Positions 22,094 through 36,499 of a DNA stretch of 64,000 nt are shown piece after piece. Every line of letters begins with the position of its first letter. Positions within the stretch are counted from its first letter, which is position 1. The stretch comes from Leeuwenhoekiella aequorea (GTDB lineage: Bacteria > Bacteroidota > Bacteroidia > Flavobacteriales > Flavobacteriaceae), in assembly GCF_004104375.1 (NCBI RefSeq), contig NZ_QOVM01000002.1, positions 682,001 through 746,000 of the forward strand. Direction: 5' to 3'. The translations under genes were made by a program, and so were the position numbers. Below the pieces are notes generated by a model. That model did not search any database and was not told the DNA's origin. It was given only the letters and a program-made list of their open reading frames with translations.

Positions 22094-23281
22094 TTGAACT
22101 ACCGACTTTTAGATAAAGATGTTGTAGAATTTATTCATTCAAACCTAAATGAAGATATTTCAAGATTGATTCTTAAAGGGAGTCCGTTTTCTGATGTAAC
22201 AATTCAGGAACTAGCTCAGCAGCTTATTGGGTTTCAAAAAGCACAAAATAAACTACCTTCGTGGTTTTCTAATTCAGAGATATATTTTCCTCCTAAACTT
22301 AATCTAGAGCAAACCTCATCTGAGGCTACTGCATCCTATAAAGCAAGTTTATTTACAGGATCAAAAGCAATAGATCTTACAGGCGGTTTCGGGATTGATG
22401 ATTATTATTTAAGTAAAAATTTCAAACAAGTAACCCACTGCGAGATTAATGAAGATCTCGCAGCAATAGCTGCGCATAATTATAAATCGTTAGGAGCAGG
22501 AAATATAAGTGTTGTCACGTCAGATAGTCTAAAGTATTTGGAAAAAACAGATGCTTTTTACGATTTGATTTATGCAGATCCCTCACGACGATCTATCAGT
22601 AAAGGCAAAGTATTTATGTTGAAAGATTGTGAGCCTAATATACCTGATAACCTAGATTTATTATTTAAAAAAACAGATACTGTAGTATTAAAAACCAGTC
22701 CGTTGCTGGACATAACTGCCGGATTAAAGGAACTTAATTATGTAGTTGAAATTCACGTTGTAGCGGTTAAGAATGAAGTGAAAGAATTACTTTGGGTTCT
22801 TAAGAAAAACAGAGCACAACAATCTATAAAATTAGTAGCAGTAAATCTTGATAGTGATTATACGACTCCGGTAACGCTTAATTTTGAAGCACAAAACGAA
22901 TCATTTTCTGCTTATGCAGAGCCATCAACGTATTTGTATGAGCCTAATGCTGCTTTATTAAAATTAGGAGTTTTTAACTGGATAAGTACGCATTACCATT
23001 TAGAAAAACTTGCTCCAAATTCACATTTATATACTTCTGATAAAAAAATTGAATTTCCGGGGAGAGTGTTTAAAATCAACGCTACTGTTCCTTATTCAAA
23101 AAAAGAAATTAGCAAGCTTCTAAAAAATAAAAAAGCACATATTACGACACGTAATTTTAAAGAAAGTGCTCCTGCATTACGATCTAAATTTAAGGTACTT
23201 GACGGTGGGGATACGTATTTATTTTTCACCACTCTGGAGAACAATAAATCGATTATGCTTAGCTGTTCGAAATTGACTTAA
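22094..23281 (+). CDS. Class I SAM-dependent methyltransferase with THUMP-like domain
   Basis: A 395-residue protein with an N-terminal helical part, a Rossmann methyltransferase core (AIDLTGGFGIDDYY as motif I, EINEDLAA, and LIYADPSRR as motif IV) and a C-terminal THUMP-like region (RVFKINATVPYSKKEI onward). Such proteins probably methylate RNA, but no substrate is established. It starts with TTG at 22094, three bases after the AI-2E gene. Its 3' end overlaps that of the convergent heme oxygenase gene by four bases. Confidence 0.85.
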   Translation: MNYRLLDKDVVEFIHSNLNEDISRLILKGSPFSDVTIQELAQQLIGFQKAQNKLPSWFSNSEIYFPPKLNLEQTSSEATASYKASLFTGSKAIDLTGGFGIDDYYLSKNFKQVTHCEINEDLAAIAAHNYKSLGAGNISVVTSDSLKYLEKTDAFYDLIYADPSRRSISKGKVFMLKDCEPNIPDNLDLLFKKTDTVVLKTSPLLDITAGLKELNYVVEIHVVAVKNEVKELLWVLKKNRAQQSIKLVAVNLDSDYTTPVTLNFEAQNESFSAYAEPSTYLYEPNAALLKLGVFNWISTHYHLEKLAPNSHLYTSDKKIEFPGRVFKINATVPYSKKEISKLLKNKKAHITTRNFKESAPALRSKFKVLDGGDTYLFFTTLENNKSIMLSCSKLT

Positions 23282-23841
23282 TATGACTTTTGAAAAATTT
23301 CAAAAGCAAAGTGAGCTCCATCTACCGCCTCATCAATTTCTGAATCTGTGTAGGCCTTTTCATTTACAGCTTCAGTAAAGGCTTTCCACCTATTCATAAC
23401 ATCTTGCGCAGATTTTCCAAAAAAGTGATGTGTTTCAATAGTGTTGATCCCCTTACAATTCTCTAGATTTTTTCTAATTAAAAGGCCTCCCATCATCGAG
23501 CCTTCTGCAACGTAAAGTATTCCCAGGAGAAAAGGATAATTTATCTCATTAGGTAAAGATTCATTAAGTTTTGAGGGCAAGGATGCACCTAATTGTTTTA
23601 AATCATTTTCTAATGCTTCGGCTTTTTTTGAATCTGCAAAGACTCTTAAAGATTCAGGCATAGGGCCTGAAAATTGTTTTGATAATTCAGAAAGCGTATA
23701 ATAAGCTTGGTAATTTTGAGATAATAGCGCCTTATATTGATCTAATGTTATACTATGATCCAGTATATATTTTGCAAGGTTATCAGCTTCTGTTTCTTTA
23801 TGAAGCGTTGCCGTCCTTGTCTTTAAATGTTGTAAAATCAT
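23278..23841 (-). CDS. bphO: Heme oxygenase (BphO-like), makes biliverdin for the phytochrome
   Basis: A 187-residue heme oxygenase. H14 in TATLHKETE is the proximal heme ligand, and YVAEGSMMGGLLIRK is the distal helix motif of bacterial enzymes associated with phytochromes. It opens heme to biliverdin, CO and iron. It is the last gene of the phytochrome operon, and its start overlaps the preceding receiver gene by 44 bases in another frame. Context makes chromophore supply much more likely than iron scavenging. Convergent with the THUMP-like methyltransferase. Confidence 0.93.
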   Translation of the reverse strand: MILQHLKTRTATLHKETEADNLAKYILDHSITLDQYKALLSQNYQAYYTLSELSKQFSGPMPESLRVFADSKKAEALENDLKQLGASLPSKLNESLPNEINYPFLLGILYVAEGSMMGGLLIRKNLENCKGINTIETHHFFGKSAQDVMNRWKAFTEAVNEKAYTDSEIDEAVDGAHFAFEIFQKSY

Positions 23842-24385
23842 ATCCTAATTTAAGGCGTTTTAAGTCTTCCTGTATTTTGTTCATTCCGTCTCGATGAGAC
23901 ATATTTTCTCTGGAAAAATTTTCTAAAAAAAGCTCGATATCACTTACTAACTTTTTACTCTCCAAAATACGTTTGCGTACTGGATTTATATAAGGTCCGT
24001 TGTTACTTATCGCTTTAAGATAAGGCTCAATACGCTTATGTAAGGTACTTATATTCTTCTTCAAGATGTAGCCAGAAGCACCATTGAGTATAGTATCTGC
24101 TGCAAGCTCTTCATCATTGATAGTACCTGTAATAAATATAAATGTAACCGAAGGAGCTACCTCCTGAGCTAACTCTAATATATCTAAACCTGTACAAGTA
24201 GGTAAATTATAATCAGATAGAATAAGGTCTGGCTTTAAATTAGATAAAGCCAATTTAAAATCTCTCAAATTATTACATACTGAAATAGTAGCGTTTTCAG
24301 CAATTTTTGAAATTTCTCGTTTGATCAAAGTGCTATCACTAGGATTGTCTTCAACCATTAAAATCTGTAAAGGTTCTTTAATCAT
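23798..24385 (-). CDS. Response regulator with helical C-terminal extension
   Basis: About 195 residues. The receiver domain spans roughly residues 1-125, with phospho-acceptor aspartate in LILSDYNLP, conserved acidic MVEDNP, threonine in FITGT and lysine in ILKKN. A charged, mainly helical tail of about 70 residues follows (NPVRKRILESKKLVSD onward); I recognise no DNA-binding or enzymatic domain in it. The ATG at 24385, one base after the upstream stop, is preferred; a longer start at 24403 would overlap. It is operonic with the phytochrome and is a probable phosphate receiver of it. Confidence 0.87.
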   Translation of the reverse strand: MIKEPLQILMVEDNPSDSTLIKREISKIAENATISVCNNLRDFKLALSNLKPDLILSDYNLPTCTGLDILELAQEVAPSVTFIFITGTINDEELAADTILNGASGYILKKNISTLHKRIEPYLKAISNNGPYINPVRKRILESKKLVSDIELFLENFSRENMSHRDGMNKIQEDLKRLKLGYDFTTFKDKDGNAS

Positions 24386-24386
24386 C

Positions 24387-24797
24387 TTATTTATTATATA
24401 CAATCCAATATTCTATTAAAACAGGCAAGGTTTTGCTTAATTCCAAATAGCTTTTAGGCTTTTCTAAAAAACTATTTGCACCTATCTCATACGCTTCTTT
24501 AATATCTTTTTTTAAATCTGAAGATGAGAAAATAACGACAGGAATATTTAAATATTCCTTATAAGCCCTAAATCTTTTTAAAATCTCAAGTCCATCTAAT
24601 TTTGGTATTTTAATGTCAAGCAAAATTAATTTGGGTAATGCTAACTTAAAACTTTCACTCTCTAAGTAACTTATAGCCTCTTCCCCATCGCAAATGTGCA
24701 TCAGATTATATTCTGGAATATGCTTCTTAAATATACGTTTCATTAACGCTACATCTCGTGGGTTATCTTCTATAGAAAGAATGTGATTTGAATACAC
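24387..24797 (-). CDS. Single-domain response regulator (Rcp1-like)
   Basis: A 136-residue stand-alone receiver: acidic IEDNP, phospho-aspartate in LILLDIKIPKLDG, serine in FSSSD and the conserved lysine in FLEKPKSYLEL. The form (long alpha1 and an insert after beta3) is like Rcp1-type partners encoded next to phytochromes. It lies 12 bases after the phytochrome gene and is the best candidate for direct phosphotransfer. No output domain. Confidence 0.92.
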   Translation of the reverse strand: MYSNHILSIEDNPRDVALMKRIFKKHIPEYNLMHICDGEEAISYLESESFKLALPKLILLDIKIPKLDGLEILKRFRAYKEYLNIPVVIFSSSDLKKDIKEAYEIGANSFLEKPKSYLELSKTLPVLIEYWIVYNK

Positions 24798-24809
24798 TTA
24801 ATAAAAATT

Positions 24810-27023
24810 TTATCCTAAATTAAAGAAAAAAGTACTTCCTTCATTAATCGCACTCTTTACAGTAATAATTCCAGAATGTTTTTTAACAATACGAGCTACG
24901 ATGGCCAGGCCTATGCCAGAACCTTCATACTCCTCACCTACTAAGCGATTAAAGAGTTTAAATATGCGATGCTCGTGCTTTTGATCAAATCCTATCCCGT
25001 TATCCTTAACATAGTAAAATAGATCTCCATTTAATAATGTAGAGCCTACTTCAATATACGGTTCCTCAGCTTTCCCGGTGTATTTAATTGCATTTGTAAG
25101 CAGATTCTGCATTAACTGAGTAACCATTTTAGCATCCCCGTTAAGCATTGGCATATTAGCGTCAATAGTAATCTTAAGCTTAGGATGGTTTAGCCTAACA
25201 TTTAAGAAATCTAGGATATCATTTGTAATTTTAGCGAGATCAAATGGTGCCCGTTCAGTTTCATATTGGGTTACTTTTGAAAATTCTAAGATATTATCAA
25301 TAAGCTGATTCATATTACTGGCAGAATCTAAAATAGTCTCAATAGCAGATTTACCAAAGTCATCTAACTCTTCATAATAATCTTCTTTAAGAATCTGTGT
25401 AAAACCATCTATTCCTCTTAACGGGGCTCTTAAATCGTGTGCAACACTATAACTGAAGGTTTCTAAATCTTCGTAAGCAATAGTAAGTTTATTATTTAAG
25501 GTTTTTACTTCCTCGTACTTCTTTAAAATTATTTCAGAAATATTTTGACGCAATACGCTTGCAGCTTCTACTTCATAATCCTGCCAGGGTTCTGATTTTT
25601 TCTCTTGAGAAACAGACCACTTTTCAAAAGACTTACGTGGCGAAATTCTGAAGTTTTTCTCATTAGTAAATGACTTATCTGGATTTCCTGCCCAATTTAC
25701 TGTGCTTTTCTTTTCTGGTTTAAACCAGATTAGACAATCATCTTTGAATTTTGAAATAAAAACACACAATACACCTGAAGCCTTTCTAATCAAATCCTTA
25801 TCACAGTCTAAATCTAAAATAAACTCGTTTGACTGAAATAAATTTTGAGTTGAGCGTTTTTTAATCTCTGAAATGAATTTAAAGATATCTCTTTCTTCTG
25901 GGGCATCTCCCAGACGATATACGATATCATCAATGTATAAAGCAGCCCCGCTGGCATCATTGAGATCGAGAAGATTCATATCTCCTTTAACTAAGCCTTC
26001 ACTTATATCCCAATTTTCACTTATCTGTTTCATTAGCGTATTACGCAAATTTGCAGACTCGTTCACTTTCTCAAGTAACGTATTTGTAGTTGATAATAAA
26101 AGTTGACTCGAGAACACCTGCGTCAGAAACTTACAAGATTGACGCTCGTAATAGTTAACAAACTTAGGCGTATAATGATGACAAGCTATTAATCCCCAAA
26201 GCGTACCCTTAAATATTATTGCCGCAGTGAGTGATGCACCTACATTCATATTTTGCAAGTACTCTATATGAATAGGTGACGTTCCTCTAAGCTCACTTAG
26301 AGTTAAATCTACAGGATTATTGCGCTCTACACCCTGATGTGCTAAAATAGATACAGGCGCTTCATTTACATCTGAAATGATGCGTACACCTTGTTTTAAA
26401 AATAGATCGCGAGCTTGTTTAGGAATATCACTTGCTGGGTACCTCAGACCCAACCAGGTTTCCATTCCCTGATCGCGAGCTTCAGAAATAACAATGCCAT
26501 CCCAGTTCTCATCAAACTTATAGATCATAACTCGGTTATAATCGTAGAGTTTCTTTATAAGATCTACCGCAACATCACACATTTGCTGCTCGTTATTTTG
26601 CTCGCTGAGTCTCGTAACAACTTCTGAGAGCTGAATTTGATAATCAAAAGCGTTTTGCGACTCTTGAAAATTCTCGAACTCCAACAAGATAGAATTACCT
26701 GTTTTATGGGCAATTAATAAAATATCTTCATTGTTTAAATGCAGGCGTACCGGAGAAAGCTTTACGTGATTTGTTGCATTTTCTAAATCATTAATAAGGT
26801 GGTCTTCAACAAGAGATTCTAGTGAAGAACCTAGTAACTCACTAATAGATTTATTAAATAAGGTGTCTATATTTTCACTACAATAGGTTATTTCTAATGT
26901 AGTAGCATCACAAACCAGTAAGTAGCCGTGGCTTTGTATTTTGCCTATTATATGTATAGGTTCTTTATCACAATCGATAAGCTTTAAATCTTCAGGATAT
27001 AATTCTGATGAACCCTCTTTCAT
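24810..27023 (-). CDS. bphP: Bacteriophytochrome histidine kinase
   Basis: A 737-residue red/far-red photoreceptor. The N-terminal extension carries C18 (LIDCDKEPIHIIGKIQSHG), the thioether attachment site for biliverdin. PAS (about 15-110), GAF (about 135-305, with PASDIPKQAR and the HIEYLQNMNVGASL chromophore helix, LWGLIACHH) and PHY (about 320-500, tongue motif PRKSFEKW) are followed by a HisKA domain (H in SVAHDLRAPLRG) and HATPase (N-box NLLTNAIKYT, GIGLAIVARI). All functional residues look intact. The start follows the stop of the CheB/CheR kinase gene by one base. Receivers and heme oxygenase are downstream. Confidence 0.96.
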   Translation of the reverse strand: MKEGSSELYPEDLKLIDCDKEPIHIIGKIQSHGYLLVCDATTLEITYCSENIDTLFNKSISELLGSSLESLVEDHLINDLENATNHVKLSPVRLHLNNEDILLIAHKTGNSILLEFENFQESQNAFDYQIQLSEVVTRLSEQNNEQQMCDVAVDLIKKLYDYNRVMIYKFDENWDGIVISEARDQGMETWLGLRYPASDIPKQARDLFLKQGVRIISDVNEAPVSILAHQGVERNNPVDLTLSELRGTSPIHIEYLQNMNVGASLTAAIIFKGTLWGLIACHHYTPKFVNYYERQSCKFLTQVFSSQLLLSTTNTLLEKVNESANLRNTLMKQISENWDISEGLVKGDMNLLDLNDASGAALYIDDIVYRLGDAPEERDIFKFISEIKKRSTQNLFQSNEFILDLDCDKDLIRKASGVLCVFISKFKDDCLIWFKPEKKSTVNWAGNPDKSFTNEKNFRISPRKSFEKWSVSQEKKSEPWQDYEVEAASVLRQNISEIILKKYEEVKTLNNKLTIAYEDLETFSYSVAHDLRAPLRGIDGFTQILKEDYYEELDDFGKSAIETILDSASNMNQLIDNILEFSKVTQYETERAPFDLAKITNDILDFLNVRLNHPKLKITIDANMPMLNGDAKMVTQLMQNLLTNAIKYTGKAEEPYIEVGSTLLNGDLFYYVKDNGIGFDQKHEHRIFKLFNRLVGEEYEGSGIGLAIVARIVKKHSGIITVKSAINEGSTFFFNLG

Positions 27024-27024
27024 A

Positions 27025-30000
27025 TTAAAGTTTTATTTTAAAATAAAAAGTACTTCCATCGCCAAATTGTGAATCAACCCAAATATGACCATCATGAAGC
27101 TTAACAATTTTCTTACAGTGGGCAAGTCCTACACCGGTGCCTTCATAGCGTTCTTCCGTAGGCACTCTTCCAAAAATCTTAAATATACTTTCTAGATCAT
27201 CTTCTTTAATTCCGATCCCATTATCGGTAATTGCAAATGTTTGATATTCTTCATCAGCAAATGTGGAAATACGAATACTGGGTTTCCTATCTTTCTTTCG
27301 GTATTTAAGCGCATTACTTATCAAGTTCTGAAACAGCAGTCGCAACTCGGTCTCATAAGCCATAACTTTAGGCATTTTCCCGACGCTAACTGTGGCATCT
27401 GCCTCCCGAATACTTTTATTTAAATCATATTTTACAACCTCAAGCAACTCATTTACATCAACACGAGTTTTCTTTAAGTCTTCACCTATTCTACTATGTT
27501 CTAAGAGTGCTTTAATCTGCTCGGCCATTCTTCCGGAAGCTTCATGAATATAACCTAGGTACTCTATTCCCTTTTCATTAAGATTTTCACTATACTTTTT
27601 TAGTATAAAATCACTACTAAAACGTATAGTAGCTAGAGGTTCTTGAAGATCATGAGAACATATAGAGACAAATTGCTCTAAATCTGTGTTTGTGCGAAGC
27701 AAATCTTCCTTTTGACGCATAAGTTCGGCTTGAGTCTGCTTAAGTTCTGTAACTTCCATAAGTGTACAGCGATAGAGTGTTTCACTCTCATCAAAGTTGC
27801 TTAGCGCGTCAGCATTGAATATAATTTCTATACGCTCCCCATTCAAATTTTCTAAAGTAAGTTCTTCCGTAGAAACTTTACCTTCCTCTTTTAGTTTTTT
27901 ATGAATACGTATTCCTTTTAATTTACTTTCATTAGAATAGTAATCAAAAATCGAAGAACCTATAACTTGACTTTTCTTTTCAAAACCCAGCGTATTAATA
28001 AACAACTTATTACATTCTGTAATTAAGCCTGTATCTGCATTTAGGCTTACGTGCATTACAGGATCATCTTCATAAAAGGCTTTAAATTTTTCCTCGCTCT
28101 TACGCAGTTTTGCTTGTGATTTTTCAATTTTAGTAATATCAATAAATGAAATTACCACTCCTTCAATTTTTTCACCATGATTAATAAATGGAGAGATCCT
28201 TTTTATGAAATGTCTACCCGATTTACTAATAATTCGTTTTTCAAAAACGGTTCCCGATTTCATTACATTTCGAGCATTATCTGCCAACGTACGCTCATTG
28301 GATATACTGAAACTAGACACAAAATTCTCAATCGGTCGCCCAATATCGTGCTTCATCAAATGAAAATGCTCCCGAATTGCCGGAGTAAATTTTCGAATAA
28401 TTAGATTTTGATCTAAAAACACTGTGCCTATACGCGTACTATCAAGAAGGTTATCCATATCAGCATTAAGCATAGCCAGATCTTCCATCTTTTCAATATG
28501 CTCGGCGTTGATAGAGTGTAACTCTTCATTTACACTTTGCAGCTCTTCATTAGTACTTTGTAACTCTTCATTAGAAGCTAGTAATTCTTCGTTAGAAGCC
28601 TGTAATTCTTCGTTACTTGTTTCTGCTTCTTCTAAGGCATTACTTAATTCGTACTGGGTTTCTTTTAATTCTTCCTCAAGACTAGCAATACGTTCTTGAG
28701 CACTTTTTGTTATATCGGCGCGCTCTACAACCACACCTTTAAGGCTGGTTTTATCTTGCTTAATGAATGTTACAATAAAATTAAAAATCTCTGTTTTTCC
28801 AGATTCAACAGGTTTTACCAGAACATCAATTACCGCATTTAAATTACCTTCATCATCTATTAATTCTACCTCTTTGTAAAAAACGGTTTTTTGTTTACGT
28901 GCAGCTTTACGTACTGCATTACGTACTACCACAGAAAGTTCAGGAGCAATCATACTCATAAGATCTGTCGTAAAACCTTCACTGGGCAACTGGGCATATA
29001 AATTAAATGCACCCATTGCCTCAATAATTTTAAAATCTGCGTTTATATAAATACTAGCCGCACCGTATTGTTGTAAAATAGCAGTACTTATCTCGGTACG
29101 TAAATAATCTGCTGACATACTTTTTTTGCTACTTGATTTTTTCAAATCTGCTATTTGACTTTTAAATGCGTTACGTTCTGCGGAAGAGCTTAGTATTTCA
29201 GTTCTTAACCGTAATGGGGCTTCTAGATTTCTATAGATATTCCACTTTCTATTAATATCTTCAAATGAATCTGCATGCTCGCCTAACGATTCACTTGTAC
29301 CTAATATTAATACTCCACTTTCTTTGAGTGCATAGTGCAAAATATGAATAACTTTTGCCTGTACACTACTTTGCAAGTATATAAGTAGGTTACGACACAT
29401 CACCATATCCATATTTTTAAATGGTGGGTCGTTAGTTATATTGTGATTGGAGTAGATTACCGACTTTCTAAGAGAATCCTTAACGGTATAATTCTCTTCT
29501 TCTTTTATAAAATACTTAGCAATTCGAGCGTCTGAAATATCGCCAAGTGCATTTTTTGAGTATTTACTTCTTCCGGCTATTTCCAAGTGATCACTTGAAA
29601 TATCTGTAGCAAAAATTTTAAGACTAAGATCTTTACCTTGTTTATCTATTTCATCTAATATTAGAATACCTAAAGAAAAAGGTTCTTCTCCGGTACTACA
29701 TCCTACATCCCAAACCTTAATAACTTCGCCATTAGGTTTTTCAGTCACCATTTTAGGAATGACTTCATTCTCTAAAATTTCCCAAACACGCTGGTCTCTA
29801 AAGAATTTGGTAACTCCTATAAGAAACTCTTTATATAATACCTCAACCTCTTTTCTGTTGTTTTTTAAATACGTGTAGTAAGCTTCTAACGAATTTAATT
29901 TTAAAACACGTACCCGTCGACCTATCCTTCTTAAAAGTGTGGGGCGTTTATATAAACTAAAATCGAGATCTGTGTGTATTTTTAATACCGTTAAAATATC

Positions 30001-30645
30001 TTTTAATAAGTTCTCATCGTACTGATAAGATCCCGCATCAAAATCTAAATTACTCTGCGCTTCAAAATAATTTGACAATTCATCGCTCATACGTTCTACA
30101 GGAACAACATAATCAACCAATCCGGTTTTAATTGCATTGCGCGGCATACCATCAAATTTTGCCTGCTCAGGTTGTTGAACCATTACCACGCCCCCTTTCT
30201 CTTTTATAGAACGTATTCCTCGCGAACCGTCACTTCCTGTTCCGCTTAAAATAATACCCGCACATAAATCACCTGCAGTCTCAGCCATCGATTCAAAAAA
30301 TAAATCAATTGGGAGATTTAAGGTCTTATCTGTAGGTTTTGCTAAGAGCTTAAAACGACGCTCTTCTATGATCAGATTTTTAGTAGGTGGTATTAAATAA
30401 ATACTGTTTGCCTGTATTTCTGCACCATCCTCAATAATTCGTATTGGAATTTTAGTGTTTTTACTTAATAATTCTGCCATCAAACTTTTATGGTCTGGAG
30501 ACAGATGTTGCACCACAATAAATGTGTACAAAGAAGATGTGGGAACATTATCAAAAAACTCGTTAAGTGCCTGAAGTCCGCCTGCACTAGCACCTATACC
30601 AACGATTATGTGCTTTGCATTTTGGGTAATTGTATCTATAGTCAC
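27025..30645 (-). CDS. CheB-CheR-PAS-PAS-histidine kinase fusion
   Basis: A 1206-residue protein. CheB methylesterase domain (about 10-190) has the catalytic S20 in GASAGG, H in VQHLSPDH and D in GTGSDGSRG. CheR methyltransferase (about 200-470) has RRIGRR, VWDVGCSTGEEPFSL and CRNLLIYL. A coiled coil with five exact heptads of EELQASN type follows, then PAS domains (one with GTVFLDQNLIIRKF, one with VMHVSLNAD), HisKA (SHDLQEPLATIR) and HATPase (NLISNALKYR). No chemotaxis genes are nearby, so the CheB/CheR part likely serves sensing rather than flagellar adaptation. Start is GTG at 30645. It heads the phytochrome operon. Confidence 0.93.
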   Translation of the reverse strand: MTIDTITQNAKHIIVGIGASAGGLQALNEFFDNVPTSSLYTFIVVQHLSPDHKSLMAELLSKNTKIPIRIIEDGAEIQANSIYLIPPTKNLIIEERRFKLLAKPTDKTLNLPIDLFFESMAETAGDLCAGIILSGTGSDGSRGIRSIKEKGGVVMVQQPEQAKFDGMPRNAIKTGLVDYVVPVERMSDELSNYFEAQSNLDFDAGSYQYDENLLKDILTVLKIHTDLDFSLYKRPTLLRRIGRRVRVLKLNSLEAYYTYLKNNRKEVEVLYKEFLIGVTKFFRDQRVWEILENEVIPKMVTEKPNGEVIKVWDVGCSTGEEPFSLGILILDEIDKQGKDLSLKIFATDISSDHLEIAGRSKYSKNALGDISDARIAKYFIKEEENYTVKDSLRKSVIYSNHNITNDPPFKNMDMVMCRNLLIYLQSSVQAKVIHILHYALKESGVLILGTSESLGEHADSFEDINRKWNIYRNLEAPLRLRTEILSSSAERNAFKSQIADLKKSSSKKSMSADYLRTEISTAILQQYGAASIYINADFKIIEAMGAFNLYAQLPSEGFTTDLMSMIAPELSVVVRNAVRKAARKQKTVFYKEVELIDDEGNLNAVIDVLVKPVESGKTEIFNFIVTFIKQDKTSLKGVVVERADITKSAQERIASLEEELKETQYELSNALEEAETSNEELQASNEELLASNEELQSTNEELQSVNEELHSINAEHIEKMEDLAMLNADMDNLLDSTRIGTVFLDQNLIIRKFTPAIREHFHLMKHDIGRPIENFVSSFSISNERTLADNARNVMKSGTVFEKRIISKSGRHFIKRISPFINHGEKIEGVVISFIDITKIEKSQAKLRKSEEKFKAFYEDDPVMHVSLNADTGLITECNKLFINTLGFEKKSQVIGSSIFDYYSNESKLKGIRIHKKLKEEGKVSTEELTLENLNGERIEIIFNADALSNFDESETLYRCTLMEVTELKQTQAELMRQKEDLLRTNTDLEQFVSICSHDLQEPLATIRFSSDFILKKYSENLNEKGIEYLGYIHEASGRMAEQIKALLEHSRIGEDLKKTRVDVNELLEVVKYDLNKSIREADATVSVGKMPKVMAYETELRLLFQNLISNALKYRKKDRKPSIRISTFADEEYQTFAITDNGIGIKEDDLESIFKIFGRVPTEERYEGTGVGLAHCKKIVKLHDGHIWVDSQFGDGSTFYFKIKL
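28522..28626 (-). repeat. Five 21-base repeats encoding an exact heptad coiled coil
   Basis: Five tandem 21-base units inside the CheB-CheR kinase gene encode successive heptads starting EEL and ending N. The units are diverged at DNA level but keep period and register, giving a rigid signalling helix between the CheR and PAS parts. Confidence 0.85.
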
Positions 30646-30863
30646 AAAGTTATTTTGAATAGTTAGTTTCTTTTAAATGCCTGATTTATTATTAAAAATA
30701 ATAAACTAGATGAGAATGAATCAAAATTACAATATCTATAGATATGAATTTAACGTGATGTTAAATTTTAAGAAATCCTTAAGTATTGTATTACTTATAA
30801 TAATTATTAATTACGATATTTAGATAATTTCAAGCTTTGAAAATCCTCAATCTTGAGTCAATA

Positions 30864-32208: not shown

Positions 32209-33933
32209 TTATGTACCAAATTTTAAAATCACACTCCCGCAATTACGCATCGTATCTGTATAATATGGATTTATAATTTTTTCTGAAGTACTAAGCCAAA
32301 CCGCTCCTTCACTATTATTTGCCATTGGACAACGCTGCAAATATAATGCAGGTTTTAAATTATTAAGATTATTTACTATCGCAGCCATATTTTCATTAAG
32401 AATCACAAAATTTTCTCGTTGACTTGCAATCGTTTTTGCATTTATAATTGCATTGAGCATCTTTGTAATTTTGGTTACTTGCATCTTCGCAGAATTCGGA
32501 AGTGTTTCCAAATTAACTTTATTAAAGGAGGATTTTAAATCTGTTGCATATTCAGAAACCCGTTTAGGGTTAGATTCTACAAAGGCTTCTGTTAATTTTA
32601 AGTACCCCGATATTGTACTATTTAAAGATGCTTCATTAGCTTCAGAAAAAACAACCTTGTTGTCCTTAGACTTAAGCTGCTCATCTTCAATACCAGAATT
32701 CATCATTGATTTTTTTCCGCCTAACTGAGCGGCTGCATCAACCGTGAATGTTCCATTAACTACGATTTCTTCACCTACAGATAATCCGGAGACAATGGTA
32801 TAATTTCCTCCTGCTTTTTGTCCTAATCGAACTTCTCGCATCTCAAAAACAGTTTCTTTGGGATTCGGTTTAACATAAACCAGCGATCGCTCTCCCGTCC
32901 ACATCACTGCTGAAGCAGGTATACTTAATTCAGAATTGGACGTGCCTGGCGAGCTATCTACACGCGCAGATACAAACATTCCCGGTTTAAAAAGGCCTTC
33001 TTTATTATTAAGTATAACTCGTATAGTAACAGTGCGAGTCTGCGTATTGAAAATAGGATCAATAAATGATATCTCGCCTTCAAAACTGCGATTAGGATAT
33101 GCATTTGTTTCTATAGAAAGTAACATCCCTTCTTTAAATTGATCGATTTGACGTTCATAAACATCAAATTCAGCCCAAATAGTAGCTAGATTACTTACCT
33201 TAAAAATAGCTTTCCCGTCCATAATATGATCTCCCTCATTTACGGCAATTTCAGTCACTACACCAGATACGTGAGAATAAATTGGGAAACGTGTTACCAC
33301 TTCACCAGATTGCTCTATTTGATCAAGTAATTGACCGTGAATTTTAAGGTTATTAAATTTACTACGTACGGCATTATATAACTTAGGCTGTGTTGCTTTC
33401 ATTTTTGCAGCTGTGATTAACTCTTGCTGCGCCGCTACCAATTCTGGCGAATAAATAGTTGCAATCCGTTGTCCTTTAGAGACCTCCTGCCCCAGAGAAC
33501 GAATAGCTAAACTTTCTATTCTACCATTAAAATGGGCTGGTTGCGTTGCTGTGGCATTCTCATTTATTGCGATCCTGCCAGACAAATTAGTTGTATTTGT
33601 ACCAGTGGTAGTTTTGCTGCCAATGATTAAAGTTTGCACTCCCGCCAATGCTATTGCATTTTTGGTCATTGTAAATTGATTTGCTTTCAATCCCGAAGAT
33701 TCCGTTTCCTTTTTAACGAGATCCATTCCACATATAGGACAGTCACCAGGCTCTTCTCTAATAATTTGCGGATGCATAGAACACGTATACAGTTCTGCAG
33801 CATCACTAGCGATATGTTCATGACCAACTTCCGCAGAAATGGATTCTTGATTATCGCTATTTGTAAACAACAAGTAACCCAATCCCAAGCCTACTGCGCC
33901 AGCTATTATAATGTAAAGAATAGATTTATTCAT
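32209..33933 (-). CDS. cusB: Copper efflux RND periplasmic adaptor (CusB-like) with HMBD and DUF3347
   Basis: A 574-residue membrane-fusion protein: N-terminal membrane anchor (about 5-25), a heavy-metal-binding domain (YTCSMHPQI...CPICGMDLV, about 49-76), the barrel-sandwich/beta-barrel adaptor core (about 110-420), and a C-terminal DUF3347 domain ending with QRCPMANNSEGAVWL and MRNCGSV, which carry further Cys/Met ligands. It links CusA to CusC across the periplasm. The two metal modules fused to one adaptor suggest it takes Cu(I) or Ag(I) directly. It is the last gene of the copper operon. No clear terminator follows. Confidence 0.92.
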   Translation of the reverse strand: MNKSILYIIIAGAVGLGLGYLLFTNSDNQESISAEVGHEHIASDAAELYTCSMHPQIIREEPGDCPICGMDLVKKETESSGLKANQFTMTKNAIALAGVQTLIIGSKTTTGTNTTNLSGRIAINENATATQPAHFNGRIESLAIRSLGQEVSKGQRIATIYSPELVAAQQELITAAKMKATQPKLYNAVRSKFNNLKIHGQLLDQIEQSGEVVTRFPIYSHVSGVVTEIAVNEGDHIMDGKAIFKVSNLATIWAEFDVYERQIDQFKEGMLLSIETNAYPNRSFEGEISFIDPIFNTQTRTVTIRVILNNKEGLFKPGMFVSARVDSSPGTSNSELSIPASAVMWTGERSLVYVKPNPKETVFEMREVRLGQKAGGNYTIVSGLSVGEEIVVNGTFTVDAAAQLGGKKSMMNSGIEDEQLKSKDNKVVFSEANEASLNSTISGYLKLTEAFVESNPKRVSEYATDLKSSFNKVNLETLPNSAKMQVTKITKMLNAIINAKTIASQRENFVILNENMAAIVNNLNNLKPALYLQRCPMANNSEGAVWLSTSEKIINPYYTDTMRNCGSVILKFGT

Positions 33934-33982
33934 AATTTTATTTTATTTCTTCGGAAACATTAAATTTTCTACCTCCTGATAT

Positions 33983-36499
33983 TTAGTCTAGAGATTTATT
34001 CCGTAAGCGCAATGCATTTGCAATTACAGAGACCGAACTAAAACTCATAGCAAGTGCAGCAATCATAGGTGACAATAGAATCCCAAAAAACGGATACAGT
34101 ACTCCGGCGGCGATAGGCACACCAATAGAATTATATATAAGAGCAAAAAATAAATTCTGCTTAATATTTCTCATAACAGCAACACTCAGGTTATGAGCTT
34201 TTACAATACCATGTAAATCGCCCTGCACTAGTGTTATTGCTGCACTTTCTATTGCAACATCTGTACCTGTCCCCATTGCAATACCTACATTGCTTTGCGC
34301 TAGTGCTGGGGCATCATTAATCCCGTCTCCTGCCATAGCAACGAACTTTCCTTCATTTTGCAAACGCACAATCTCATCCTGCTTATCTTCAGGCAGCATT
34401 CCTGCTTTATAATCTATTAGATTAAGGGAGTTTGCTACCGCCTTTGCTGTATTTTGATTATCGCCGGTGAGCATTATTACAGCAATATCTTTTGCCTGTA
34501 GAGCCTGTATAGCTTTTTTACTTGATTTTTTAATTTTATCAGTGATTACTACAAAACCTACCGCTTCCTTATTTACCGATAGAAAGGATACAGTTTTGCC
34601 CTGCTCTTGATGCTTTATTGATGCCGCGCGCAATTCATCTGTTATGCTTGCGCCAGCTTCTTCCATCATTTTTTCATTACCCAATGCCAACTTTTTATTC
34701 TCAAAATTACCAGTAACCCCTTTTCCGGTAACCGAATTAAAATTTTCTATTTTAGAAATTGTAACACCTTGTTCTTGAACGTAGCGTACAGTAGCTTCGG
34801 CAAGTGGGTGCTCACTTAAATTGTTAAGTGCAGAAATGTATTCTAAGAGTGCTTCTTCTGTAAAATCTCCATACGAATGAATTGCTTCAACAGATGGTTT
34901 TCCTTCGGTTAGCGTTCCTGTTTTATCAACAATGAGCACATTAATTTTATCCATTTTTTCTAGTGCTTCGGCATTTTTGATCAGCACACCGTTTTGCGCA
35001 CCTTTACCTACACCTACCATTACAGACATAGGAGTGGCTAAACCTAATGCACATGGACAAGCAATAATGAGAACTGCAATCGCATTTACTAATGCATAGA
35101 CATAAATCGGCTCTGGACCAAAAATTACCCAAAGAATGAAAGTGAGTATAGAAATCCCTACAACTACAGGAACAAAATATCCAGATATTTTATCAGCTAA
35201 CTTCTGAATGGGTGCTTGACTGCGGCTGGCTTTATTAACCATCTCGATGATTTGAGATAACAATGTTTCTCCACCTACCTTTTCAGCTTTCATTAGAAAA
35301 GATTGTTTTCCATTTATGGTTCCGCTGCTTACCGTGTCGCCCTCATTTTTATTAACCGGAATAGGCTCTCCAGTAATCATTGATTCATCTATAGCACTCT
35401 CGCCTTCTGTAATAATACCATCAACAGGTATTCTGTCTCCCGGCTTTACACGTAAAATATCATTCTTCTCAATCTCATCTATTGATACCTGCTGCTCATT
35501 CCCGTTTACGATTTTTAATGCTTTATTAGGTGCCAACTTAAGCAATTCTTTTACCGCAGAATTGGTTTTACTATGTGCTCTGGCTTCTAAAACTTGACCC
35601 ATTAAAACCAGAGTAAGAATTACAGTTGCAGCTTCATAATAAACGTGAACAGTATCTGAGGCTGTCTTAAACTGCTGCGGAAAAAAATCGGGAATAAGCA
35701 TACCAAATACACTAAAAAGCCAGGCAACTCCGGCTCCAATTCCTATAAGTGTAAACATATTGAGATTCCACGTTTTTACTGATCTCCACGCGCGTTCAAA
35801 AAACATCCATGTTGCATAAAAAACCACAGGTAGTGATAAAATAAACTGAACCCAATTCCAATATTCCTGAGCCATTAACTTATACAAAGGATTGTCATTG
35901 AGCATTTCACTCATAGCGATTATAAATATGGGAAGCGTAAAACCGAGCGCAATCCAAAATTTATTTAGCATTTTTTTATACGACTTTTCTTCAGCCGAAA
36001 GATCCGGTTCAACAGGAACCAAATCCATCCCACAAATACTACAACTACCCGGCTCATCTTCGTTAATCTCTGGGTGCATAGGACAAGTGTAGGTAGTATG
36101 CGCTGTAGCTCCTGCGGTTTTTTCCTGCACTAAGTCCATACCGCAAACCGGGCAATCTCCAGGTTTGTCGTAGGTTTTATCTCCTTCACAGTGCATAGGA
36201 CAATAATATACTCCCTCACCTGCCGCTGCTTTAGGATTGGTTTCTGACTTTGTTTTTTTAGAATCCTTCTTAATTTTGGGCGCTTTGCCTTGTTCGTGAA
36301 TGGTATAATCCCCACCGGCTTCGGCTAATGCAGCCTGATAAACCCCAATTTTAATAGGTTTTTCGGTTTCGAGAATTGCTTGAGCATTTGACAAATCTAT
36401 GTCTGCCTGAATGACGCCACTTACCTTAGATAACGTTTGTTGAACGTGGTTTTGGCAGCCTTTGCAACTCATTCCGTGTATGTGATAGGTCTTTGTCAT
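33983..36499 (-). CDS. copA: Copper-translocating P1B-type ATPase with HMA and two HMBD modules
   Basis: An 838-residue pump. HMA domain with C12/C15 (GMSCKGC), then two heavy-metal-binding modules (YYCPMH...CPVCGMDLV, about 97-125; YTCPMHPEI...CSICGMDLV, about 136-165), the membrane part with the transport motif CPC (IACPCALGLATP), phosphorylation site DKTGTLTEGKP, HPLAEA of the nucleotide-binding domain and GDGINDAPALA. It exports Cu(I) from the cytoplasm (EC 7.2.2.8). It lies between the DUF3347 lipoprotein and CusB in the operon, joining cytoplasmic export with RND efflux. Confidence 0.95.
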   Translation of the reverse strand: MTKTYHIHGMSCKGCQNHVQQTLSKVSGVIQADIDLSNAQAILETEKPIKIGVYQAALAEAGGDYTIHEQGKAPKIKKDSKKTKSETNPKAAAGEGVYYCPMHCEGDKTYDKPGDCPVCGMDLVQEKTAGATAHTTYTCPMHPEINEDEPGSCSICGMDLVPVEPDLSAEEKSYKKMLNKFWIALGFTLPIFIIAMSEMLNDNPLYKLMAQEYWNWVQFILSLPVVFYATWMFFERAWRSVKTWNLNMFTLIGIGAGVAWLFSVFGMLIPDFFPQQFKTASDTVHVYYEAATVILTLVLMGQVLEARAHSKTNSAVKELLKLAPNKALKIVNGNEQQVSIDEIEKNDILRVKPGDRIPVDGIITEGESAIDESMITGEPIPVNKNEGDTVSSGTINGKQSFLMKAEKVGGETLLSQIIEMVNKASRSQAPIQKLADKISGYFVPVVVGISILTFILWVIFGPEPIYVYALVNAIAVLIIACPCALGLATPMSVMVGVGKGAQNGVLIKNAEALEKMDKINVLIVDKTGTLTEGKPSVEAIHSYGDFTEEALLEYISALNNLSEHPLAEATVRYVQEQGVTISKIENFNSVTGKGVTGNFENKKLALGNEKMMEEAGASITDELRAASIKHQEQGKTVSFLSVNKEAVGFVVITDKIKKSSKKAIQALQAKDIAVIMLTGDNQNTAKAVANSLNLIDYKAGMLPEDKQDEIVRLQNEGKFVAMAGDGINDAPALAQSNVGIAMGTGTDVAIESAAITLVQGDLHGIVKAHNLSVAVMRNIKQNLFFALIYNSIGVPIAAGVLYPFFGILLSPMIAALAMSFSSVSVIANALRLRNKSLD

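Follow-up and report, generated by a model that had tools for sequence, protein, structure and literature searches.

A phytochrome operon of Leeuwenhoekiella aequorea with a CheB-CheR kinase that may carry its own methyl-acceptor helix

The window considered here is the whole 64,000 nucleotide stretch of Leeuwenhoekiella aequorea contig NZ_QOVM01000002.1, from which all coordinates are taken, and its minus strand harbors, from 30645 to 23278, the genes of a CheB-CheR-PAS-histidine kinase, a bacteriophytochrome, two receivers and a heme oxygenase, as identified from open reading frames (ORFs) and Pfam. We propose that this is a red/far-red two-component operon in which methylation adaptation is housed in a single kinase, with the acceptor helix in the same chain, and we give this reading a probability of about 0.5. 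The kinase holds the only CheR and CheB domains of a genome devoid of MCPsignal and CheW domains, its linkage to the phytochrome is conserved in relatives, and a helix of repeated Glu-Glu pairs accompanies long CheR proteins. From this arrangement we infer that the helix is methylated, that methylation affects the kinase and that phytochrome and kinase are coupled.

Operon organization

The five genes, all on the minus strand, are the following:

27025-30645, minus: CheB-CheR-PAS-coil-PAS_10-PAS-histidine kinase, 1206 aa (CheB, CheR_N, CheR, PAS_10, PAS, HisKA and HATPase by Pfam)
24810-27023, minus: bacteriophytochrome, 737 aa (PAS_2-GAF-PHY-HisKA-HATPase by Pfam; Cys18)
24387-24797, minus: receiver 1, 136 aa, a single domain (Pfam)
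23798-24403, minus: receiver 2, 201 aa, with a tail of about 70 residues (Pfam; phospho-acceptor Asp64 by motif)
23278-23841, minus: heme oxygenase, 187 aa, for biliverdin supply (Pfam Heme_oxygenase, 9.4e-17)

These are the genes that a preliminary description of this DNA had listed, with gaps or overlaps of a few bases between them. The spacing is indeed that tight at the first three junctions (1 base, 12 bases and a 17-base overlap), and is not at the last one, where the genes overlap by 44 bases. The 17-base overlap between the receivers holds for a TTG start; with an ATG six codons further on, the two genes lie 1 base apart. In our reading of the sequence, the five-gene set is an operon.

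CheR and CheB in the host genome

The host genome, which is 99.8% complete, yielded a single CheR match (PF01739) and a single CheB match (PF01339), both in the CheB-CheR kinase, and not one match to the MCPsignal domain or to the CheW domain found in CheW and CheA proteins. Of 14 control genomes, 6 or 7 gave matches in the same four profile searches. We also searched 17 relatives for MCPsignal, namely nine with the operon, four in which the kinase gene is solitary, and the genomes G177, G498, G279 and G559 described below; none had a match above the cut-off, and one short weak match fell below it. Since the only CheR and CheB of the genome reside in this kinase and no MCPsignal or CheW domain is present, CheR must act on something other than a chemoreceptor, or on nothing. 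The absence of these two domains from the genome also makes plausible the earlier suggestion of a light-driven adaptation circuit outside chemotaxis.

A Glu-Glu helix in the CheB-CheR kinase

The kinase unites CheB, CheR, PAS and HisKA/HATPase domains with their catalytic residues in one chain; CheB Ser20, His47 and Asp139 and the kinase His998 are all present by motif, and Pfam finds no receiver domain in the protein. Its parts are as follows:

30076-30603, minus: CheB methylesterase domain, residues 15-190 (PF01339, 3.6e-56)
29242-30006, minus: CheR methyltransferase (CheR_N + CheR), residues 214-468 (PF01739, 1.7e-53)
28756-29124, minus: putative PAS-like domain, residues ~508-630, absent from the Pfam output and suggested by the helix/strand order of the model (block pLDDT ~68-82)
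28438-28713, minus: predicted single 92-residue helix, residues 645-736 (helix 639-730 in the model, offset 6; block pLDDT 79-90 except for the first dozen residues)
28507-28632, minus: candidate methyl-acceptor run, Glu-Glu at 672/673, 679/680, 686/687, 693/694, 700/701 and 707/708 (sequence)
27745-28458, minus: PAS_10 and second annotated PAS, residues 730-967 (Pfam)
27028-27681, minus: HisKA + HATPase, residues 989-1206 (Pfam)

The structure model covers 854 residues and was built from 61 sequences, with a mean predicted local distance difference test score (pLDDT) of 82.9 and a predicted template modelling score (pTM) of 0.53. In the model, CheR is followed by the PAS-like domain, the 92-residue helix and then PAS_10. 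Foldseek matched it to CheR (5ftw, 8.4e-20), to CheB (3sft, 1.2e-15) and then to two-PAS proteins such as DosP and FixL at about 1e-9; these last matches, which the output reports without query ranges, probably cover the PAS-helix-PAS region.

The helix between the two PAS domains carries six Glu-Glu pairs at seven-residue spacing and resembles the methylation helix of E. coli Tar. Among the stretches compared in 83 aligned proteins, the helix core is the best conserved, with a mean column entropy of 0.87 bit (CheB 1.85, CheR 1.92, PAS_10 2.34 and the last PAS 2.98). The conservation extends to heptad positions that were not part of the selection criteria: Leu occupies position 3 in 80% of the heptads, and Asn occupies position 7 in 82%.

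Occurrence of the helix in CheR homologues and controls

Of 124 CheR homologues no shorter than 600 aa, 102 had at least four Glu-Glu heptads in register (four to eight). A first, stricter heptad pattern undercounted some intact proteins, giving for example 2 for L095 and L100. The CheR homologue sets were gathered with helix-containing queries, and the length limit of the 124-protein set means that it contains no stand-alone CheRs. In a plasmid collection, where 236 of 329 matching records cover at least 80% of the CheB-CheR-PAS-kinase query, 11 of the 12 homologues fetched from those 329 had at least four heptads, including two CheR-coil-PAS proteins without CheB, L135 (Nonomuraea) and L136 (Azospirillum). 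In the L136 locus, two CheB genes stand beside the CheR-coil-PAS gene. L136 (758 aa, nine pairs by eye) and a second protein from Azospirillum argentinense plasmids, L210 (716 aa, three pairs by eye), differ by 42 residues in length, as if six whole heptads had been gained or lost.

A query consisting of CheR alone, run to offset the helix-containing queries, matched 435 plasmid records. From 40 listed, 12 were fetched, picked for genus variety with clinical isolates omitted, and they are therefore not a random draw. All six long CheB-CheR fusions among them had runs of 5-7, the CheR-PAS protein L210 scored 1, and none of three stand-alone CheRs had a Glu-Glu run, two of these three lying in clusters with CheA and CheW. 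In both split loci the CheR piece lacks the coil, and a run of six occurs in the next, PAS-coding gene:

L208 4553-6361, Paracoccus liaowanqingii plasmid: split locus, next gene with a Glu-Glu run of 6
L215 4323-5324, Deinococcus gobiensis plasmid P1: split locus, next gene with a Glu-Glu run of 6

For a further control we took all ORFs of at least 150 aa in six frames, many of which are thus not genes, from the loci gathered by then. At least four heptads in register occurred in 85 of 102 CheR homologues, and even two heptads in register in none of 888 non-CheR frames (39 kinases without CheR and 849 others). As PAS_10 controls without CheR we took 20 proteins with short open frames from the stronger of the matches listed, and 19 of them had no heptad or one. 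The exception, L148 (G309), encodes at about 2229-2750 on the minus strand part of a Glu-Glu coil and PAS domains, with no CheR or CheB, directly beside a CheB-CheR gene, and its product is possibly an acceptor in trans. When applied to 49 kb of E. coli K-12, the heptad test selected one of 106 ORFs, that of Tar, at the helix that bears its known methylation sites.

CheB alterations and the helix

If the helix were the substrate of the fused enzymes, it might decay once these are lost. At least four heptads were present in 96 of 105 proteins with intact CheB residues, in 3 of 15 with altered CheB and in 3 of 4 lacking CheB. Placed by eye on a tree of 122 CheR rows, the 15 CheB-altered rows fall on six branches, and the run is weakened on three of them: a clade of 10, where 1-2 heptads are found compared with 5 in L095, the closest intact relative; L108, which has 1 where five intact relatives have 6; and L121, with 1. 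The loss test with misses allowed gave means of 6.67 and 5.07. Rows with altered CheR are mixed, with a count of 1 in L189 and L121, 2 in the fragment L103 and 6 in L107, L198 and L199 (one Arg to Cys). We regard the outcome of this test as suggestive only.

Ten CheB-CheR proteins of genus g128 (L097, L099 and L174-L181), each about 1070-1100 aa long, form a clade in which the CheB Ser and/or His is altered and the checked CheR letters are kept. In L121 (G491, plus-strand frame from ~3207), the CheB and CheR signature residues are both degenerate and the Glu-Glu run is gone.

Altered CheB residues in 15 of 124 homologues, 10 of these in one clade, would also be expected if CheR and CheB were catalytically idle relics in an ordinary PAS kinase located beside a phytochrome. 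However, the CheB Ser/His/Asp (or Glu) residues are intact in 105 and all seven checked CheR letters in 110 of the 124, the L. aequorea protein included, and we consider it improbable that the enzymes are idle.

Comparison with chemoreceptor methylation sites

Several observations weigh against the helix being a methyl-acceptor. The methylation consensus published for methyl-accepting chemotaxis proteins, [ASTG][ASTG]XX[EQ][EQ]XX[ASTG][ASTG], has two small residues on either side of the pair (PMC6829392). Tar matches this full consensus at four pairs, starting at 294, 301, 308 and 490; the L. aequorea helix does so at none, nor do 99 of 102 homologues, in which position -4 is mostly Gln or Glu. 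Four of the six pairs on the long (modelled) helix fit the right half of the consensus, while Ser-Val and Ser-Ile, with one small residue each, come after the last two. Searches of Pfam and the Protein Data Bank returned generic coiled coils alone and no chemoreceptor, so that homology to chemoreceptors was rejected, and the Glu-rich heptads could be structural. The Azospirillum protein L210, in which CheR is joined to PAS and whose gene adjoins two CheB genes, scores only 1; so does E. coli Tap, which shows that the heptad test misses a true acceptor. Moreover, the count falls below four heptads in 9 of the 105 proteins whose CheB residues are intact, and the run is kept on the other three CheB-altered branches (L185, L098 and L138). 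The failure of the consensus is not fatal in itself, since adaptation sites that break it have been reported for TlpT in the same paper (PMC6829392).

These observations can be accommodated if the Glu-Glu helix is a dimerising signal helix between PAS domains and nothing more, with CheR and CheB acting in trans, their target being for example the phytochrome, one of the receivers or some other kinase. Signalling helices lie between PAS domains, and this is where the model places the present one, which has neither a chemoreceptor profile match nor the full consensus and which CheB-dead proteins at times retain. There is also a precedent for a CheR target of another kind, since CheR is reported to methylate an arginine in PhoP, a Salmonella response regulator (PMC8546571). 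However, a helix that served purely as a linker would have no need of an almost invariant pair of Glu residues in each heptad, and the other PAS or kinase proteins sampled lack the run, except for genes located beside CheR genes (L148, L208 and L215). We consider a purely structural helix, with the enzymes acting in trans, less likely than self-methylation.

Linkage to phytochromes

We screened 249 genomes of the host's family, its own included, drawn evenly from a larger group. The CheB-CheR kinase had matches at E <= 1e-150 in 28 of these (29 rows, of which 14 were full length including that of the window), and 18-19.5 kb were read around each of the 13 other full-length orthologues; a scan of genome contigs contributed three loci only and is hardly drawn on. 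In 9 of the 13, phytochrome, receiver 2 and heme oxygenase genes lie directly downstream on the same strand, so that the gene order of the window recurs in other Flavobacteriaceae, and receiver 1 is present in three of those nine operons. Conversely, phytochrome matches numbered 17 in 16 of the family genomes. The 12 best-scoring of these all have receiver 2 and heme oxygenase, and 11 of the 12 adjoin CheB-CheR, one of them divergently. Ten are beside a full-length CheB-CheR kinase; in G177 (L109) the phytochrome, both receivers and heme oxygenase are divergent from a CheB-CheR kinase of another subfamily, and in G068 (L110) the same four genes occur with no CheB-CheR in the 18 kb read. The other five of the 17 have no receiver 2 match and no adjacent CheB-CheR.

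In a phylum-wide sample of 345 genomes, 111 hold a CheB-CheR match (E <= 1e-40) and 31 a phytochrome (36 matches); four of the 36 are adjacent to CheB-CheR, window included. The phytochromes of G498 and G279 are the sole two of the 36 with an open frame below 700 aa (517 and 498); Pfam finds PAS_2-GAF-PHY and no kinase domain in them, and a CheB-CheR-PAS-kinase gene follows immediately downstream. G279 also has a heme oxygenase, and in G559 a receiver, CheB-CheR kinase, heme oxygenase and phytochrome stand in a row. A phytochrome without kinase beside a CheB-CheR kinase is the strongest sign that light is intended to act on that kinase. In the tree of 122 CheR domains, phytochrome partners occur in the clade of the window, on the branch of G177, on that shared by G498 and G279 and on the remote branch of G559. 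The second and third of these branches are possibly sisters (support 83/88), which leaves the number of independent pairings uncertain.

The preliminary description had considered that the CheB-CheR kinase might be a chance neighbour, in this case of a self-sufficient phytochrome-receiver-heme oxygenase operon. Four of the 13 orthologues are indeed solitary, with neither a phytochrome nor a heme oxygenase nor a partner receiver in the stretch read and with neighbours that look unrelated by eye, which also tells against our reading of the operon; the G068 operon lacks the kinase in the DNA read, and 32 of the 36 phylum phytochrome matches are not beside a CheB-CheR match. However, nearly all of the closest family phytochromes adjoin CheB-CheR, phytochrome partners lie on separate branches of the CheR tree, and the kinase-less phytochromes are directly upstream of a CheB-CheR kinase. 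Given the conserved order and these kinase-less phytochromes, the kinase does not appear to be an accidental neighbour; we consider such a coincidence very improbable, and rejected it on the conserved gene order. The tie between CheB/CheR and phytochrome, described beforehand as unusual, thus holds in a conserved order and several arrangements, but CheB-CheR fusions as such are common, as the 111 of 345 genomes show, and some orthologues have no phytochrome partner.

Other operon components and flanking DNA

The bacteriophytochrome has both a PAS-GAF-PHY photosensory core and a kinase by Pfam. The candidate biliverdin-binding cysteine near its N-terminus is Cys18, as predicted earlier, and all 15 aligned phytochromes have Cys in this column. 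Against the NCBIfam equivalog NF041576 (BphP) the protein scored 286.8 bits, below the cut-off of 1040, so it is not that equivalog and its placement among phytochromes rests on the domains and the cysteine. Receiver 1 consists of a single receiver domain, as in the Rcp1 response regulator, and the heme oxygenase has one His column that is invariant in 14 aligned proteins.

A terminator-like hairpin lies upstream of the operon at 30888-30867, and a scan of the region found six such sites against 3.5 in shuffles. The Bacteroidota -7 box is TAnnTTTG. The sequence TAACTTTG (window 30645-30652, minus strand) fits it and overlaps the GTG taken as the start of the CheB-CheR gene; the true start codon or promoter of this gene may lie elsewhere. 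Two genes upstream, at 32209-36499 on the minus strand, lies a block that by eye resembles heavy-metal export genes, with one protein like a P-type ATPase and one like an efflux adaptor.

Proposed mechanism

In the proposed circuit, heme oxygenase would supply biliverdin, to be bound at Cys18 of the phytochrome, and the phytochrome kinase and the CheB-CheR-PAS kinase would both feed receiver 2, as well as receiver 1 where present. The CheR domain would methylate, and the CheB domain demethylate, the Glu-Glu pairs of the inter-PAS helix in their own kinase, and methylation would shift the packing of the helix and hence kinase activity, as in chemoreceptors. Light could enter via the phytochrome, by contact or by the shared receiver. 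Since this CheB lacks the receiver domain that regulates chemotaxis CheB, feedback on it would have to pass through the shape of the helix.

The signal more likely leaves via receiver 2, because this receiver is found in all ten operons with a full-length CheB-CheR kinase (window included) and receiver 1 in four of the ten. The step after receiver 2 may be a protein contact, in view of its tail, which is present but variable in all 12 aligned proteins. Pfam found no DNA-binding, GGDEF or cyclase domain in the five operon proteins, in agreement with the preliminary description, and an output through DNA binding or a cyclase was accordingly rejected. Of the two outputs put forward there, protein contact may hold; carboxyl methylation is probably not an output but a gain control acting on the kinase, as both enzymes and the candidate acceptor are housed in the same protein.

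A broader proposal, tentative and just short of an even chance, is that CheR fusions across bacterial phyla are self-contained methylation-adaptation kinases with their own tandem acceptor helix, encoded within the fusion or, at split loci, by the gene that follows. They would provide sensory memory without chemoreceptor arrays, and the L. aequorea operon would be their red-light version. If so, histidine kinases in general would have their gain set by reversible methylation, and phytochrome signalling could adjust to the ambient light level in the way that chemotaxis adjusts to the prevailing level of ligand.

Comparison with known systems

CheB-CheR-PAS-kinase proteins and phytochrome-heme oxygenase operons are both already known. 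In the openly licensed literature we found no paper joining a CheB-CheR kinase with a phytochrome operon or naming the CheR acceptor of the fusions. The question matters because many proteins are labelled 'chemotaxis protein CheB' even though their host can be devoid of chemoreceptors, as in L. aequorea, and the Glu-Glu helix offers a testable answer, down to exact residues, to what the fusion CheR methylates. Other fusions of this type, annotated as 'chemotaxis protein CheB' or 'CheR family methyltransferase', share the domain order and the Glu-Glu helix; the L. aequorea subfamily differs from them in being encoded with a phytochrome and a chromophore enzyme.

The likeness to E. coli Tar-type chemoreceptors (PMC6829392) lies in heptad-spaced Glu-Glu/Gln pairs, with two small residues after four of the six pairs here, and in the CheR/CheB enzymes. 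In contrast to these receptors, L. aequorea has no MCPsignal or CheW domain, the proposed acceptor, the enzymes and the kinase are in one chain, and the left half of the consensus is lacking. An operon of Myxococcus macrosporus (PMC11832031) likewise brings together a phytochrome (BphP), a heme oxygenase, a response regulator and an extra histidine kinase. The second kinase of L. aequorea carries CheB and CheR and is accompanied by two receivers. Light signalling tuned by CheR/CheB has been suggested for the haloarchaeal sensory rhodopsin transducers HtrI and HtrII (PMC5812497). These act through chemoreceptor-type transducers and taxis, whereas L. aequorea has the light sensor and the enzymes without a chemoreceptor.

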